Positions 47,864-53,823 of a stretch of 64,000 nucleotides of DNA are shown one piece after another. How positions within the stretch are numbered: position 1 is the first letter of the stretch; the number at the start of each line of letters is the position of its first letter. Under the pieces are notes generated by a model. It was given only the letters and a program-made list of their open reading frames with translations, had not been told where the DNA came from and made no database searches. Made by a program: the position numbers and the translations under genes. Origin of the DNA: Actinomycetota bacterium (GTDB lineage: Bacteria; Actinomycetota; Actinomycetes; Nanopelagicales; Nanopelagicaceae); the NCBI GenBank assembly GCA_009699575.1, contig WLNY01000008.1, positions 1 to 64,000 of the forward strand, given 5' to 3'.

Positions 47864-48610
47864 TCAGTTCATAAAACGAGTAGGGGCGCTGACAACTTTG
47901 AGGGTTGTGACGCGAATTGTTTTGATGCGACCAGTAACTGCTCTGATGGTTCCGTTATTGCTCCATGTCCCGCCCCACGTTGCAAGGAGGGTGACTACAT
48001 ACGTTCCGGGTTGAAGATAGGCATGGCGAATTCCTCCATTGGGATAAGGGCCACCAGGATCTGTTGTGGATTGAACTCCTCCATCACCAAATGACCACGT
48101 AAAAGATGGGTGCAAGGTGACATCGACTACTTCACCAATGATGTTAAATCGTTGAACATAGGTCGTGGGTAAATCTGACCAAAAAAATACTGGCACTCTC
48201 ACAAGTGGTTCAAAATCAGGTTGATAAGCCACCCCACCAGTTGGTATCGCTTTCTCAAGTCGGTCAGCCAGAGAAATAATGGCTGACGTAGGTTTGGCAA
48301 TCTTTTTCTTCTTCATAGCCGGTTTTCTCACATATGGTTTGCGAACCACTGGTTTTTTAATAATTGGTTTCTTAACAACTGGTTTTTTGACCACAGGTTT
48401 CTTCACGATGATTTTCTTAGTGACAGGTTTCTTCACTGTTGTTGTCTTCTTGGCGCTTCCTTTCTTGCCGGTAATAATGATTTTGCCATCTTGAGTAAAT
48501 ACGTCAATGCAGGCGGTGGTTGCGCAATCAGTAGCCCCGCTTGCATGAGTAAGTGGCGCCGACGTGATGAGGAGTGAGGAGATGAGCAGGTATTTCATAG
48601 GTAGATTCAT
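47864..48610 (-). CDS. secreted PKD-domain protein with a lysine-rich repeat linker
   Basis: About 248 residues. Signal peptide (MKYLLISSLLITSAPLTHAS), a two-cysteine stretch (CATTACIDVF), then about 50 residues of KKPVV / KKPII repeats, and a C-terminal PKD-like domain (FTWSFGDGGVQSTTDPG, HAYLQPGTYVVTLLATW). Probably cell-wall associated, the basic repeat touching anionic polymers (inference). Start uncertain: TTG 48619, ATG 48610 or ATG 48598; TAGCCT lies eight bases before 48610. Confidence 0.72.
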   Translation of the reverse strand: MNLPMKYLLISSLLITSAPLTHASGATDCATTACIDVFTQDGKIIITGKKGSAKKTTTVKKPVTKKIIVKKPVVKKPVVKKPIIKKPVVRKPYVRKPAMKKKKIAKPTSAIISLADRLEKAIPTGGVAYQPDFEPLVRVPVFFWSDLPTTYVQRFNIIGEVVDVTLHPSFTWSFGDGGVQSTTDPGGPYPNGGIRHAYLQPGTYVVTLLATWGGTWSNNGTIRAVTGRIKTIRVTTLKVVSAPTRFMN

Positions 48611-48690
48611 AAGTCGCAAGGCTAAATATCTGTTGGAGGACGCATAAATTCGTGGTGCGAAGGTGTGGATAGATATGCCACTCTAGAACC

Positions 48691-49173
48691 ATGGTTGCGC
48701 GCGATGGAGATGGCTGGGTCGATTGCGACTGCGGCAATCGCCATTGGGGACTCCACGGCGCTGCTGGATTAATGATTATTCGGGACGCAACGATTTTGCT
48801 TCAGCACCGCGCACCGTGGGTGCATAACGGAGATACATGGGGTATTCCAGGTGGTGCTCGTGACTCTCACGAAACAATCATTGATGGCGCAATTCGCGAA
48901 GCAATTGAGGAAACTGGGATAGAACCAGAATTCCTCACCCCTCTTGTAATCCACGAAGATAATCATGGCAACTGGCGCTATGACACAGTGATTGCTCGCG
49001 CCACTAATAAACTCATTGCCCACGAAGTCAACGATGAATCACATGAAGTGCGTTGGGTGGAGATAGAAAAAATTGATGCAATGACGCTTCATCCGAGTTT
49101 CATTAAATCGTGGCCAGCAATAAAAGCCTTAATTGCCAATCTCGATGATCTGATCGACCCACTCCAACTGTAA
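48691..49173 (+). CDS. NUDIX hydrolase
   Basis: 160 residues with a complete Nudix box, GARDSHETIIDGAIREAIEETGI. The N-terminus (VDCDCGNRHWG) has CxC and a nearby histidine. MutT-like cleaning of the nucleotide pool is a fair guess; the substrate is unknown. The 3' end overlaps convergent hmuV by 45 bases. Confidence 0.85.
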   Translation: MVARDGDGWVDCDCGNRHWGLHGAAGLMIIRDATILLQHRAPWVHNGDTWGIPGGARDSHETIIDGAIREAIEETGIEPEFLTPLVIHEDNHGNWRYDTVIARATNKLIAHEVNDESHEVRWVEIEKIDAMTLHPSFIKSWPAIKALIANLDDLIDPLQL

Positions 49174-49728
49174 GCGTGGGATGTGAGCTACAAAAATAAT
49201 TGTTGAGCCGAGTTGGGCTAATTCTCGAAATACATCTTTAATAACTTCAACGCTGTGCGCATCTTGAGATGCCAACGGTTCATCGGCAATCAAAATCGGC
49301 GTTGACTGACTCAGGGCGCAGGCGATAGAGACACGCTGTTGTTCGCCCCCTGAAAGAGTGGAAACAAATCGGTTAGCTAGATTGTCAATCTCCAGCACTT
49401 CCAATGCAATTTGAACATCATCATGCGTGCCAGCCATTTCCAGAATTTCACGCACCGTGTAGGCAAGTGCGAATCTTTGACTTTGAGGCACAACAGCGCG
49501 CAATTGCGCAGCCTCTGTGATGCTCAGGTTTTCAAGTGGTGCGCCACCAATGGAAATTGATCCCGAAGCGATTGGAATATCTCCTGAGAGGGCTGCAATT
49601 AAAGAGCTTTTTCCAACACCATTGGGACCGATAATGGCAGTGATGTTTCCTGGGTGCGCCGTAAAAGAGATGTGCTCAATGACTGCAACACCATCTCGGT
49701 GGATACTTACATCTTTGACTTCGATCAT
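49129..49728 (-). CDS. hmuV: heme/iron ABC transporter ATP-binding protein
   Basis: About 199 residues, a single ABC domain: IIGPNGVGKSSLIAALSG, TLSGGEQQRVSIACALS, LIADEPLASQD. Start ATG 49728 overlaps the permease stop as ATGA; the track start is four residues upstream. With hmuU and hmuT it makes one importer of the FecCD/BtuCD type. Confidence 0.87.
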   Translation of the reverse strand: MIEVKDVSIHRDGVAVIEHISFTAHPGNITAIIGPNGVGKSSLIAALSGDIPIASGSISIGGAPLENLSITEAAQLRAVVPQSQRFALAYTVREILEMAGTHDDVQIALEVLEIDNLANRFVSTLSGGEQQRVSIACALSQSTPILIADEPLASQDAHSVEVIKDVFRELAQLGSTIIFVAHIPRLQLEWVDQIIEIGN

Positions 49729-50735
49729 GAAATTTTCCACACTGAACTTCGGGTACTTACAAGCGCAATCAACACTGGCGCGCCGATAAGTGAAGTCAAT
49801 AATCCGATAGGTAATTCATTAGGGCTTGCCACAGTGCGAGCTGCGGTATCGGCAGCGAGGACTATGGCAGCGCCGATAAGTGCGCCGTGAAACAACACAG
49901 TGCGATTGGTTGGACCATAGAGAAATCGCGCAATGTGCGGCGCAGCTAAACCAACAAAGGCAATCGATCCAACAGTGCTCACGGATGCACCGACGAGGAG
50001 TGAGAGAGCACCGAGAGCAACAAATCTGATGATGCGGGAATCAAACCCACGATGCCGTGCGGAGTCATCTCCAAGAGAGAGAACATCAAGTGAAGGCGCA
50101 ATTCGTGCAGCAATAATGAGTCCAGCTACAACGGATACCGCAAGAGCGATGAGATCTTTATTTGTAACAAGTGCCATAGACCCGAAGTTCCAAAAAGAAA
50201 GTGATCGGGCATCTGCTCGAGAGGCAATCGATGTTGCAACACCAACAACTGCTGCCAGCATTGCCGATACTGCGATTCCAACGATGACCAGAGTCATGCT
50301 TGACGCACTCGATCGACGCGATGCCAATGTGAAGGTAAGCATTGTTGCAAGAAATCCACCGAGGGCGCCGCACACGACAGCGCCGAATGAACCAATCGAT
50401 ACTGCGCCAACTAAAACTCCAAGTAACACCCCTGTTGCAGCTCCAGCCGATGTTCCAAGAATGGATGGCTCCGCTAATGGGTTGTTGCACGCGCCTTGCG
50501 CCATCACACCTGCTGCTCCAAGAGTCGCGCCAATAAGTAGCGCCGCAACTATGCGCGGAAAGCGAATATTCCAAATAATGTCGTGTCCGCTTTGGTCACT
50601 GTGTCGCATTGGATGAAGAAGCACGTTCCACACGTTATCGACGTGGGCTGCTCCGAGAGTAAAGGAAATAGAAATGAGCGCCAGCAAAATAGCGATGCTT
50701 ACAAATGCCCCTCGCCTACTGCTCACTCTATGCAT
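49725..50735 (-). CDS. hmuU: heme/iron ABC transporter permease (FecCD family)
   Basis: 336 residues, nine or ten membrane helices. FecCD signatures: RFPRIVAALLIGATLGAAG, GACNNPLAEPSILGTSAGAA, and SIAFVGLAAPHIARFLYGPTNR (coupling helix region). Sits between hmuT (1-base overlap) and hmuV (4-base overlap). Confidence 0.88.
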   Translation of the reverse strand: MHRVSSRRGAFVSIAILLALISISFTLGAAHVDNVWNVLLHPMRHSDQSGHDIIWNIRFPRIVAALLIGATLGAAGVMAQGACNNPLAEPSILGTSAGAATGVLLGVLVGAVSIGSFGAVVCGALGGFLATMLTFTLASRRSSASSMTLVIVGIAVSAMLAAVVGVATSIASRADARSLSFWNFGSMALVTNKDLIALAVSVVAGLIIAARIAPSLDVLSLGDDSARHRGFDSRIIRFVALGALSLLVGASVSTVGSIAFVGLAAPHIARFLYGPTNRTVLFHGALIGAAIVLAADTAARTVASPNELPIGLLTSLIGAPVLIALVSTRSSVWKIS

Positions 50736-51664
50736 TAGGCAGCTACCTTCATTATTTCTTTCGACAGAAGTGCAAGCATCGATGGAGTTCGCGGTCCAAA
50801 AGATAAGAGCAATGAATCATCAACTGCGATGATGCGAGAGTTCTTACCCGCATCCGTTTGACCCACGCCAGGTAATGCAACCAGACCTGTAACGCCTCCT
50901 ACTGATTCGAGTCCTTTTGTCATGACCAGAATGATTTCGGGATTAATTTGAGCAAGAGCTTCAGCAGTAAGAGTATTGAACGGATGAGGCATAACCTCGG
51001 CTCCCACATCACGGGCGCCAATAGCATCAAGTAAAGAATCTGCTCCAGACCCTGGGCCGCCCATAAGGTAAATAGAACTTGTTCCGCGAAGATATAAAAA
51101 GACCATGCGCGGTGCTTTTTTCATATGAACACTTGCTCGCTGAATCTCCGCTTGTATACGAGTATTGAGCGCTGTAGCGCCAGATGAAACACCGAGGGCG
51201 TCTCCGATTGCTAGTACTTTGGGAGAGATATCGACAAGAGTCCAGCTTTCAGGAATTTTTTTCACCGAGATTCCTGAAGCAACTATTTGATCAATCGCAC
51301 TTTGCGGTCCAGTCGATGCATCAATGAGGACAACATCGGGATGTGCAGCAATAATTTTTTCAGGAATTACTTGATGGCCTGAGGTGACGATAGGAACGGA
51401 GAGCAGTTGCGCATCAGTACTTGCAATGTCACGTCCTACGAGAATATTTTTTAATCCCAGGGCTGCAACAATCTCCGCTGCTCCGTTAGCCAATGCAATT
51501 ACTCGCTTACTCGTGGGAACCTCTAGAGATATTTCGTCTGCACTCAGTGTGACACTTGTGACATCACTATCGTGAATCTGAGCACTATCGACTCGAGGCT
51601 CTCCCCCGCACCCACTCAACACACACAGCATGAGCGTTGCAATGAGCAGATGCACTTTCCTCAT
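50735..51664 (-). CDS. hmuT: heme-binding ABC transporter lipoprotein (HmuT type)
   Basis: 309 residues. Lipoprotein signal with lipobox LSGC at about residue 19. PeripBP helical-backbone domain: KRVIALANGAAEIVAALGL, PDVVLIDAS, and the HmuT-like tract YLRGTSSIYLMGGPGSGADSLLDAIGA...TKGLESVGGVTGLVALPG. That tract is characteristic of hemin rather than siderophore or B12 receptors. Divergent from two secreted neocarzinostatin-like genes. Confidence 0.85.
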   Translation of the reverse strand: MRKVHLLIATLMLCVLSGCGGEPRVDSAQIHDSDVTSVTLSADEISLEVPTSKRVIALANGAAEIVAALGLKNILVGRDIASTDAQLLSVPIVTSGHQVIPEKIIAAHPDVVLIDASTGPQSAIDQIVASGISVKKIPESWTLVDISPKVLAIGDALGVSSGATALNTRIQAEIQRASVHMKKAPRMVFLYLRGTSSIYLMGGPGSGADSLLDAIGARDVGAEVMPHPFNTLTAEALAQINPEIILVMTKGLESVGGVTGLVALPGVGQTDAGKNSRIIAVDDSLLLSFGPRTPSMLALLSKEIMKVAA

Positions 51665-51688: not shown

Positions 51689-51713
51689 CCGACATGTATC
51701 ACTGTGTTGTCGG
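51689..51713. promoter_or_regulatory. inverted repeat between hmuT and the secreted-protein genes
   Basis: CCGACA-N13-TGTCGG in the 86-bp divergent gap. Position suits an operator for both directions, but it matches neither the DtxR nor the Fur consensus I know. Confidence 0.35.
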
Positions 51714-51750: not shown

Positions 51751-52254
51751 ATGAGGGCGAGAAATGTGGCAGTAGTTATTTGCGTATTTCTTCTCTTCTC
51801 CTGCGCAGAAGCACACGCGTCATCACGGAAAAGTATTTCCGGACCTGCAGGGCAAGTACTTGCTGCGTCGAAAACTCTCGTCACCAATGGAGCGCGAGTC
51901 AAAGTAACAGGTGAGAATTTTGATGAGACCGTTGGAATTTATCTTGGGTTTTGCGTAGTACCCAAAAAAGGATCTGCGCCAACTCCCTGCGGTGGCGGAA
52001 TAAATAAATCTGGAATTGCAAATGCCTCGTACTGGATTTCTTCCAATCCACCACCCTATGGAGTCGGGCTTGCTCTTCCCTTTATTGCCGGAGGTCGTTT
52101 TCAGGCCACTCTGACAATCCTTCGAAAAATTGGAAAATTTGATTGCGCGAAAGTGAAGTGCGCAATTACGGTTCGAGCCGATCACACTCGAAGTGATGAT
52201 CGAAGTTTTGACTTGTTTATCCCTATGAATTTTTCTAAGACCCCAACGAAATAA
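51751..52254 (+). CDS. secreted neocarzinostatin-fold protein
   Basis: 167 residues with a signal peptide (MRARNVAVVICVFLLFSCAEAHA; LFSC could also be a lipobox). The mature part has the neocarzinostatin layout: VTNGARVKVTGENFDETVGIY, cysteine pair C-x12-C (FCVVPKK...TPC), FQATLTILR, then a tight pair DCAKVKC (C-x4-C, as DCTTAAC in neocarzinostatin) and a closing strand FDLFIPMNF. Members bind a chromophore in an Ig-like barrel. Next to the heme importer, a heme-binding role is an inference. TACTGT lies eight bases before the ATG. Confidence 0.68.
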   Translation: MRARNVAVVICVFLLFSCAEAHASSRKSISGPAGQVLAASKTLVTNGARVKVTGENFDETVGIYLGFCVVPKKGSAPTPCGGGINKSGIANASYWISSNPPPYGVGLALPFIAGGRFQATLTILRKIGKFDCAKVKCAITVRADHTRSDDRSFDLFIPMNFSKTPTK

Positions 52255-52267
52255 GGAAGTACACACT

Positions 52268-53236
52268 ATGAAACCAATAGCTCGCATCACTGCAATAGCA
52301 GCAGTTCTTGCTCTTCTACTCTCCCCCATCAGCGCTGACGCGATGACAACTTTCAATGGTGGCCCATTGACCAATCTTGATCCCACCACTGCAACTGTCC
52401 ATATTGCTTTATCAAATTTCTCAACTAAAGGTGGCCTCTACATTCAAGAGTGCGTGGCTGGCGTTGATGGTGCTCGTCCATCTATGTGCAACAAGGCTGC
52501 CGAGCTCTGGATTTCAAATGATTCGCATGCTTCTTTTGCACCTACTGCTGACATCATCTTTAAACCACAAGCGATGTTTACATCTGGAACAACGGCCGTT
52601 GATTGCCGAGTTTCCATGTGCGGAGCTTTCTTGCGCTTTGATCACACCGTGCAGGGTGATACATCTGAGGATCAATTCATTGCGCTGACCTTTAAAGCAG
52701 GTGGCGTTGTGGTGCCAACACTTCCAACAGATGAAATCACCGCAACTCTTGGTGGGGCAACTTTAAGTACTCGCACGCCGGTGGAATTTGCCTATCGTTC
52801 TCCCGCCTTAATCATTGCGACATCCAAAGCGGGCGCACCATTGACTTATGCCTCCCTTGCTCCTGAATGCGCACTTGATGGCACTCGTGTCACAGCGCTC
52901 AAGGGAAGTGGATATTGCGATATTGCACTGACTTCTGCTGGAACATCCAGTGCTGCCGGTGTCACCGCACATTTTCCATTGAAATTAATTCCGGGTAACC
53001 AAACGATTATTGCCAAGGCAATGCCAACTACATTGAAAGCAAAAAGGAGCGCAGTGCTCTCCAAAAAGACAACCTTTGGCGCTTCAATTAAATACAGCGC
53101 CAGCGGAGCATGCGTTGTTAAAGGCAATACTCTTCGCGGAGTTCGCGTTGGTACATGCACACTCAAAGCCAGTGCTCCAGCAAAAGCTGGCATGTGGAAC
53201 AGTATTGAAAATACTTACAGAATAAGTATTAAGTAG
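52268..53236 (+). CDS. secreted neocarzinostatin-fold protein with C-terminal surface domains
   Basis: 322 residues; signal peptide ending near ISADA. Residues about 30-145 repeat the pattern of the previous gene: VHIALSNFSTKGGLYIQECV...MC (C-x12-C), DCRVSMC (C-x4-C), FLRFDHT, DQFIALTF. The rest holds beta-rich segments each with a cysteine pair (CALDG...YC, CVVKGNTLRGVRVGTC). No membrane anchor seen. AAGGAAG before the ATG, 13 bases after the previous stop: one operon. Paralogy with its neighbour is visible by eye. Confidence 0.65.
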   Translation: MKPIARITAIAAVLALLLSPISADAMTTFNGGPLTNLDPTTATVHIALSNFSTKGGLYIQECVAGVDGARPSMCNKAAELWISNDSHASFAPTADIIFKPQAMFTSGTTAVDCRVSMCGAFLRFDHTVQGDTSEDQFIALTFKAGGVVVPTLPTDEITATLGGATLSTRTPVEFAYRSPALIIATSKAGAPLTYASLAPECALDGTRVTALKGSGYCDIALTSAGTSSAAGVTAHFPLKLIPGNQTIIAKAMPTTLKAKRSAVLSKKTTFGASIKYSASGACVVKGNTLRGVRVGTCTLKASAPAKAGMWNSIENTYRISIK

Positions 53237-53238
53237 GT

Positions 53239-53823
53239 CTAAGAAACGAGTGCTCGCAGGCCGTTGATGCAAAAGGTTGTTGTTGTTGTAATTTCAACCT
53301 GGGCATCGCGGCCTGCTTCAATCCTCTTTGTAGCAGCATCCGTAATGCTTTGAATAAATGCTAGGGCTTGATCGATATCTACAACTCCTGCTTGGACCAA
53401 ACTATTTTTTAACGGGGCCAGTAGGGCGCGGTGCGCCTGACCAATTGCCATCGCCCGATTTGCGGGAGTCGATGTTGCATTGAGTGCTTTAGCAAGCAGA
53501 TGTCGCCCATCGGAAATATATGTCAGCGCTGCTTCAATCCATGCCTGGATGCAGGAGAAAGGCTCTGTGCACTCTTTCACGGCATCTTTTAAGATCAGTG
53601 CAAAGCCGTGAAGTTCTTCGATGACAAGATCTGCAGTGAGTTCGGCGCTACTTCCAAAATATTCATAGACCGATGTACGAGAAAGTCCCGCGCGAGTGGC
53701 AACAGCTGCCACAGTAATTGCAGCGCCCCCTGATTCAAGTGCAATGCTTGATGCGGCTTCAATCAGCTGGGCGCGACGCCAATCCCTGTGAGATGCAAGG
53801 TCTGAAGTTTCTATGCGCGGCAT
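53239..53823 (-). CDS. TetR/AcrR family transcriptional regulator
   Basis: 194 residues. HTH: RRAQLIEAASSIALESGGAAITVAAVATRAGLSRTSVYEYFGSSAEL. It begins four bases after the dinG stop, so it is in that transcript; its 3' end meets the convergent secreted-protein gene. Target unknown. Confidence 0.85.
   Translation of the reverse strand: MPRIETSDLASHRDWRRAQLIEAASSIALESGGAAITVAAVATRAGLSRTSVYEYFGSSAELTADLVIEELHGFALILKDAVKECTEPFSCIQAWIEAALTYISDGRHLLAKALNATSTPANRAMAIGQAHRALLAPLKNSLVQAGVVDIDQALAFIQSITDAATKRIEAGRDAQVEITTTTTFCINGLRALVS

Follow-up and report, generated by a model that had tools for sequence, protein, structure and literature searches.

Among the closest described counterparts of the genes analysed here are the HtaA/CR domains, hemin-binding hemophores that capture heme for the importer HmuTUV (PMC12494546). 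CR domains hold the hemin iron via a Tyr residue that is helped by His or another Tyr (PMC12494546). In the HmuT lipoprotein of C. glutamicum (PDB 5az3), the axial ligands His141 and Tyr240, plus Arg242, have been examined through mutant structures (PMC4926363). Proteins of the neocarzinostatin family, on the other hand, are best known for carrying antitumour enediynes, and no description of a role for this family in heme uptake was found in the literature searched, which most subscription journals lie outside; an engineered neocarzinostatin-based oxidation catalyst, seen there as a reference-list entry only, was not counted as evidence. Here, we analyse a 64 000-nucleotide stretch of DNA (the window; contig WLNY01000008.1, positions 1 to 64 000) from a member of the order Nanopelagicales, in which two genes, A (51751..52254, plus strand) and B (52268..53236, plus strand), lie beside hmuTUV. 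We propose, along the lines of the initial annotation, that A and B are probably secreted neocarzinostatin-fold heme-capture proteins, acting as hemophores or surface heme receptors for HmuTUV, with heme binding inferred from the evidence set out below.

The importer genes are all on the minus strand: hmuT (50735..51664), encoding the heme-binding lipoprotein, hmuU (49725..50735), encoding a FecCD-type permease, and hmuV (49129..49740), encoding an ABC ATPase whose top NCBIfam match, below cut-off, is a heme ABC transporter ATP-binding protein. C. glutamicum HmuT (5az3, E 2.6e-41) and further heme-binding proteins are among the matches of window HmuT. In the alignment, the counterparts of C. 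glutamicum His141, Tyr240 and Arg242 are His97, Tyr191 and Arg193, so that both axial ligands as well as the Arg are present. Judged by the homology of HmuT and the retention of its heme ligands, this is a real heme importer. A and B are adjacent, lie at the positions given in the initial annotation and, as described there, run in the opposite direction to the importer genes; A starts 86 bp from hmuT.

Both A, a single-domain protein of 167 residues, and B, of 322 residues, have an evident N-terminal signal peptide. B comprises one neocarzinostatin-type (NCS) domain (approx. residues 26–145; 52343..52702, plus strand) followed by two β domains. The cysteines of A are arranged as C68-x11-C80 and D-C132-x4-C137, with disulfide pairs expected at C68–C80 and C132–C137, and those of B as C62-x11-C74 and D-C113-x4-C118. 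Both proteins thus have the two disulfide loops, the second of the form DC-x4-C, that mark the neocarzinostatin family. The initial annotation had reported this cysteine plan and was correct for the DC-x4-C loop but not for the first loop, given there as C-x12-C. When matches were listed at E ≤ 10, PF00960 was the sole Pfam-A family for either protein; the scores of 13.0–13.5 bits for A and 13.9–17.6 bits for B fall under the Pfam gathering cut-off of 25 bits and, taken on their own, are a hint only. Homologues of A with approximately 40% identity exceed this cut-off (L119, 36.3 bits, E 6e-9), as does a 473-residue protein containing an A homologue (L111, 31.8 bits).

AlphaFold2 models were built on alignments of 36 relatives of A and 24 relatives of B, with mean pLDDT values of 84.8 and 89.7, respectively. 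A Foldseek search of the PDB with the A model returned macromomycin first (E 5e-5), with neocarzinostatin and C-1027 next. Neocarzinostatin-family entries made up 12 of the 14 top matches, the remaining pair coming from a single antibody complex as two of its chains, and target TM-scores to the chromoproteins were 0.57–0.71. The three β domains of B draw many multi-Ig proteins in the same search; for the first domain, the well-covered match is a neocarzinostatin entry (4jw3_A, target TM-score 0.74 over 123 columns). The fold proposed for both proteins is therefore borne out by structure prediction and fold search for A and for the first domain of B. Given these structural matches and the homologues above the PF00960 cut-off, A and B are best described as forming a divergent neocarzinostatin subfamily, joined to the rest of the family via those homologues. 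Profiles of A and B also match ThiX of C. glutamicum (7qhm chain M; profile E 5.9e-12), which probably carries a neocarzinostatin-type domain.

Linkage of these genes to hmuTUV had been suggested as a check on the annotation, and it proved to be conserved across the order and well beyond. Of 151 genomes sampled from the order, 68 have an A orthologue, and HmuT was found in these 68 and in no others. A and hmuT are divergent in all 66 genomes where they share a contig, with a gap of 90–337 bp, while in the remaining two they are on different contigs. The set of hmuVUT, A, B and a TetR-family gene is kept together even where the flanks differ. Five further genomes contain weak A paralogues only. 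Outside the order, we sampled the class and took proteins matching at E about 1e-28 or better as A-like; HmuT was present in 36 of the 39 genomes bearing one (Fisher p 1.6e-18, phylogeny ignored). A scan of GTDB genomes by the motif W[IV]SSNPPPY alone fetched 80 loci, from Actinomadura, Thermomonospora, Nocardiopsis, Thermobifida, Nonomuraea, Crossiella and many Nanopelagicales. HmuT was found in 79 of these, the lone exception ending at a contig edge. The hmuT gene is divergent and adjacent to the A-like gene in 44 loci, and divergent but more distant in six, while in 21 the A-like gene immediately precedes hmuT and points the same way; in three, an overlapping query prevented the distance from being scored. 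A and B thus show the genetic linkage to hmuTUV that characterizes HtaA/CR-type proteins, and they very probably belong to a heme-import module. Since the same pairing of A with hmuT recurs across many actinomycetes, the fold is probably also a heme catcher. Tandem A-like domains were seen in large-genome actinomycetes (L146:8621-9866 and L147:9347-10383; genus g33, family f19); these proteins have no HmuT within the fetched stretch and the NPPxY part of the motif is absent from them.

Further evidence comes from fusions with HtaA domains. Two Nocardiopsis-type genomes encode single HtaA-NCS-HtaA polypeptides beside hmuTUV, of 747 residues (L142, with a match to an LPXTG anchor) and 716 residues (L144), and a 2552-residue open reading frame adjoining hmuU (L137) carries three HtaA and two NCS domains. 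In the class sample outside the order, 82 genomes carry HmuT: HtaA alone is present in 37 of them, the NCS type alone in 11, both in 25 and neither in nine. The NCS type is thus complementary to HtaA in some genomes and co-occurs with it in others. The 11 genomes with NCS and no HtaA illustrate how it could give the HmuTUV loci of actinobacteria a second family for surface capture. No member of the order was among the PF04213 (HtaA) matches listed for the sampled members. HtaA/CR membership of A and B themselves was considered and rejected, as neither protein has a PF04213 match.

Alignment of 37 class-wide A-like sequences revealed eight invariant residues: Tyr64, Trp95, Phe117, Arg142, Asp144, His145, Arg151 and Asp154. 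Tyr64 (codon 51940..51942, plus strand), likewise invariant in 36 sequences from the order, is a candidate axial heme ligand. Trp95 opens the segment W-I-S-S-N-P-P-P-Y (52033..52059, plus strand) between Cys80 and the strand at residues 116–123, a candidate lid for the pocket; Tyr103, at its end, does not vary within the order, although four of the divergent class sequences lack it. The remaining polar residues fall in the motif R142-A-D-H145...R151...D154 (52174..52212, plus strand), of which R142, D144, H145, R151 and D154 are the class-wide invariant positions. Neither the RxDH nor the WxSS motif was found in the three canonical PF00960 proteins compared. Because CR domains hold hemin iron through Tyr aided by His or Tyr, we consider Tyr64 with His145 a candidate ligand pair, in which His145 may be a ligand or a helper. 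In the NCS domain of B, Tyr58, Cys113, Cys118, Asp125 and Asp135 are invariant.

A 25-bp dyad, CCGACA-N13-TGTCGG, lies between hmuT and A (51689..51713) and is probably an operator shared by the two divergent operons. All 39 loci of the order that were tested carry a site at ≥10 of the 12 arm positions, with 34 at ≥11, compared with a mean of 0.85 loci after shuffling, and the 1.39-Mb genome has just one such site. In loci outside the order, the dyad scan gave matches at background level only, and we restrict the claim of a conserved dyad to the order. The TetR-family regulator encoded convergently with B (53239..53823, minus strand) is the likely binder, since it is kept with the module and a similar dyad is found at paralogous cassettes of TetR and B-like genes. 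In these cassettes, seen in two genomes (L148:5950-7903 and L149:5414-7352), TetR accompanies a short single-domain B-like NCS protein; the dyad is upstream of the B-like gene, opposite a divergent gene for an NhaA-like membrane protein, with no hmuTUV nearby. A link to heme is thus not universal in the family. On the other side of hmuV, a secreted protein (47864-48619, minus strand) carries long repeats rich in Lys and Pro (VKKPVVKKPIIKKP...) and, after them, a PKD domain; among the loci examined, it is near the module in close relatives only.

The physiology of the order provides the context for such a module. Heme auxotrophy has been observed for Planktophila (PMC12381374) and reported for Nanopelagicales, where it barred abundant freshwater actinobacteria from stable culture until recently (PMC10202952). 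In our sample, HemE was found in nine of the 151 genomes, none of which carries the module, and HemB also in nine; both enzymes are present in eight genomes, again with the module in none (Fisher p 0.008, phylogeny ignored). Heme oxygenase of the PF01126 family was found in none of the 151 genomes (other heme-degrading families were not searched), and the window's genome encodes two COX1-family oxidases. The lack of PF01126 in the order, together with the lack of heme-synthesis genes in most genomes, suggests that imported heme is probably used intact, and the two oxidases fit its use as an intact cofactor.

These observations can be drawn together in a model in which A and B do the job of the corynebacterial HtaA/CR-domain proteins. 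Heme from the envelope or the medium would be bound in the barrel cleft that holds the chromophore in the antitumour apoproteins, which in A would be lined by the subfamily-specific residues Tyr64, Trp95, Tyr103, Arg142 and His145; it is likely that the barrel itself makes this contact with heme. Heme would then be handed over to HmuT, where His97, Tyr191 and Arg193 could receive it, in what we take to be the direction of transfer, and be imported by HmuUV for probable use in intact form. Binding of TetR to the dyad would co-regulate both operons.

How far does the fold assignment constrain this model? Similarity to neocarzinostatin could reflect a generic immunoglobulin-like likeness, with A and B unrelated to that family, and both their own sub-cut-off PF00960 scores and the moderate TM-scores to the chromoproteins would allow for this. 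The homologues of A that exceed the cut-off argue otherwise, as do the structure matches of A, in which chromoproteins outrank the library's many immunoglobulin folds, and the DC-x4-C hairpin common to A and B, leaving this explanation highly improbable and close to refuted. Equally hard to credit is a role for A and B as apoproteins that carry an enediyne-like antibiotic chromophore: the fold alone speaks for it, while the conserved partners are hmuTUV and TetR rather than biosynthetic genes. The enediyne chromoprotein family NF040680 was itself tried and rejected, A scoring 18.1 bits against a cut-off of 86 with hmuTUV and TetR as neighbours.

More serious are two explanations that accept both the fold and the locus. 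A and B could bind heme protectively, sequestering a surplus or holding a store at the surface, with their co-regulation with the importer arising from a shared response to heme. TetR repressors often control detoxification, and the shared dyad with its TetR-family regulator, along with the failure to find a PF01126 oxygenase that could clear excess heme in the 151 genomes, would suit such a role. Set against it are the 21 of 80 loci with the A-like gene directly upstream of hmuT on the same strand, the fusion of NCS domains between HtaA domains, which are known for capture to HmuTUV (PMC12494546), and the lack of HemE in module-bearing genomes, where heme scarcity is therefore likelier than surplus; overall, we regard protection as unlikely. 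Slightly less improbable, though still doubtful, is a role without heme binding, in which A and B aid the importer indirectly as envelope proteins, by docking HmuT or by binding cell-wall polymers or hemoprotein substrates, or bind some other flat ligand. The two extra β domains of B, the B-like paralogue that adjoins an NhaA-like gene without a heme importer, the position of the relative ThiX in the respiratory supercomplex and the presence of an NCS-like domain in a sortase-substrate candidate without a known heme role (PMC13251363) all point this way. Against this, the HmuT-linked subfamily has an invariant set of Tyr, Trp, Arg and His residues that none of the three canonical PF00960 proteins compared possesses, a pattern more suggestive of a ligand site than of a general-purpose scaffold. 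Several observations nevertheless weigh against heme capture by A and B. ThiX, which probably has the same domain, is nonetheless a lipoprotein of the respiratory supercomplex, and a TetR/B-like cassette with a similar dyad adjoins an NhaA-like gene. The candidate ligand role of Tyr64 and His145 derives from conservation, the first disulfide of B is lost in several relatives and its His126 is not invariant. Across the order, HemE and the module are both missing from 74 of the 151 genomes, which means that many heme auxotrophs must use another uptake route. Genome G059 combines HemB with the module; HemE was not detected there, possibly reflecting a partial pathway or an assembly gap.

If heme capture by A and B holds, the module is a concrete candidate for the apparatus by which freshwater actinobacteria that seem unable to synthesise heme collect it, and it offers a natural function for the neocarzinostatin family. 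The case is about evenly balanced for a broader proposal: that the barrel represents a further, new class among the heme-binding domains of bacterial heme uptake, beside NEAT, HtaA/CR, HasA and HmuY. In this reading the domain is actinomycete-wide, is sometimes fused to HtaA and is the one protein of this kind found next to HmuTUV in freshwater Nanopelagicales that are heme auxotrophs, and heme binding may be the function from which the antibiotic-carrying apoproteins arose.

Comparison with the known systems brings out both likenesses and differences. ThiX resembles them in its GxYxxxC, W and DH landmarks and is a lipoprotein, but it is a subunit of the respiratory supercomplex, and its soluble domain is not resolved in the structure. 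With the apoproteins of neocarzinostatin, macromomycin, C-1027 and kedarcidin, A and B share an Ig-like barrel, secretion and two disulfide loops including DC-x4-C. They differ from canonical PF00960 proteins in the x11 spacing of the first loop, the extra W[IV]SSNPPxY segment and linkage to hmuTUV instead of antibiotic clusters; the set of Tyr64, Trp95, Arg142, His145 and Arg151, invariant in the A-type subfamily, is absent from the three canonical proteins compared. The importer is like HmuTUV of C. glutamicum in its homologous HmuT with equivalents of the three ligand residues conserved, whereas its partners in the window are neocarzinostatin-fold proteins, not HtaA. Finally, like HtaA, HtaB and ChtA of corynebacteria, A and B are secreted β-sandwich proteins encoded beside hmuTUV in actinobacteria, although they come from a different domain family, without PF04213.
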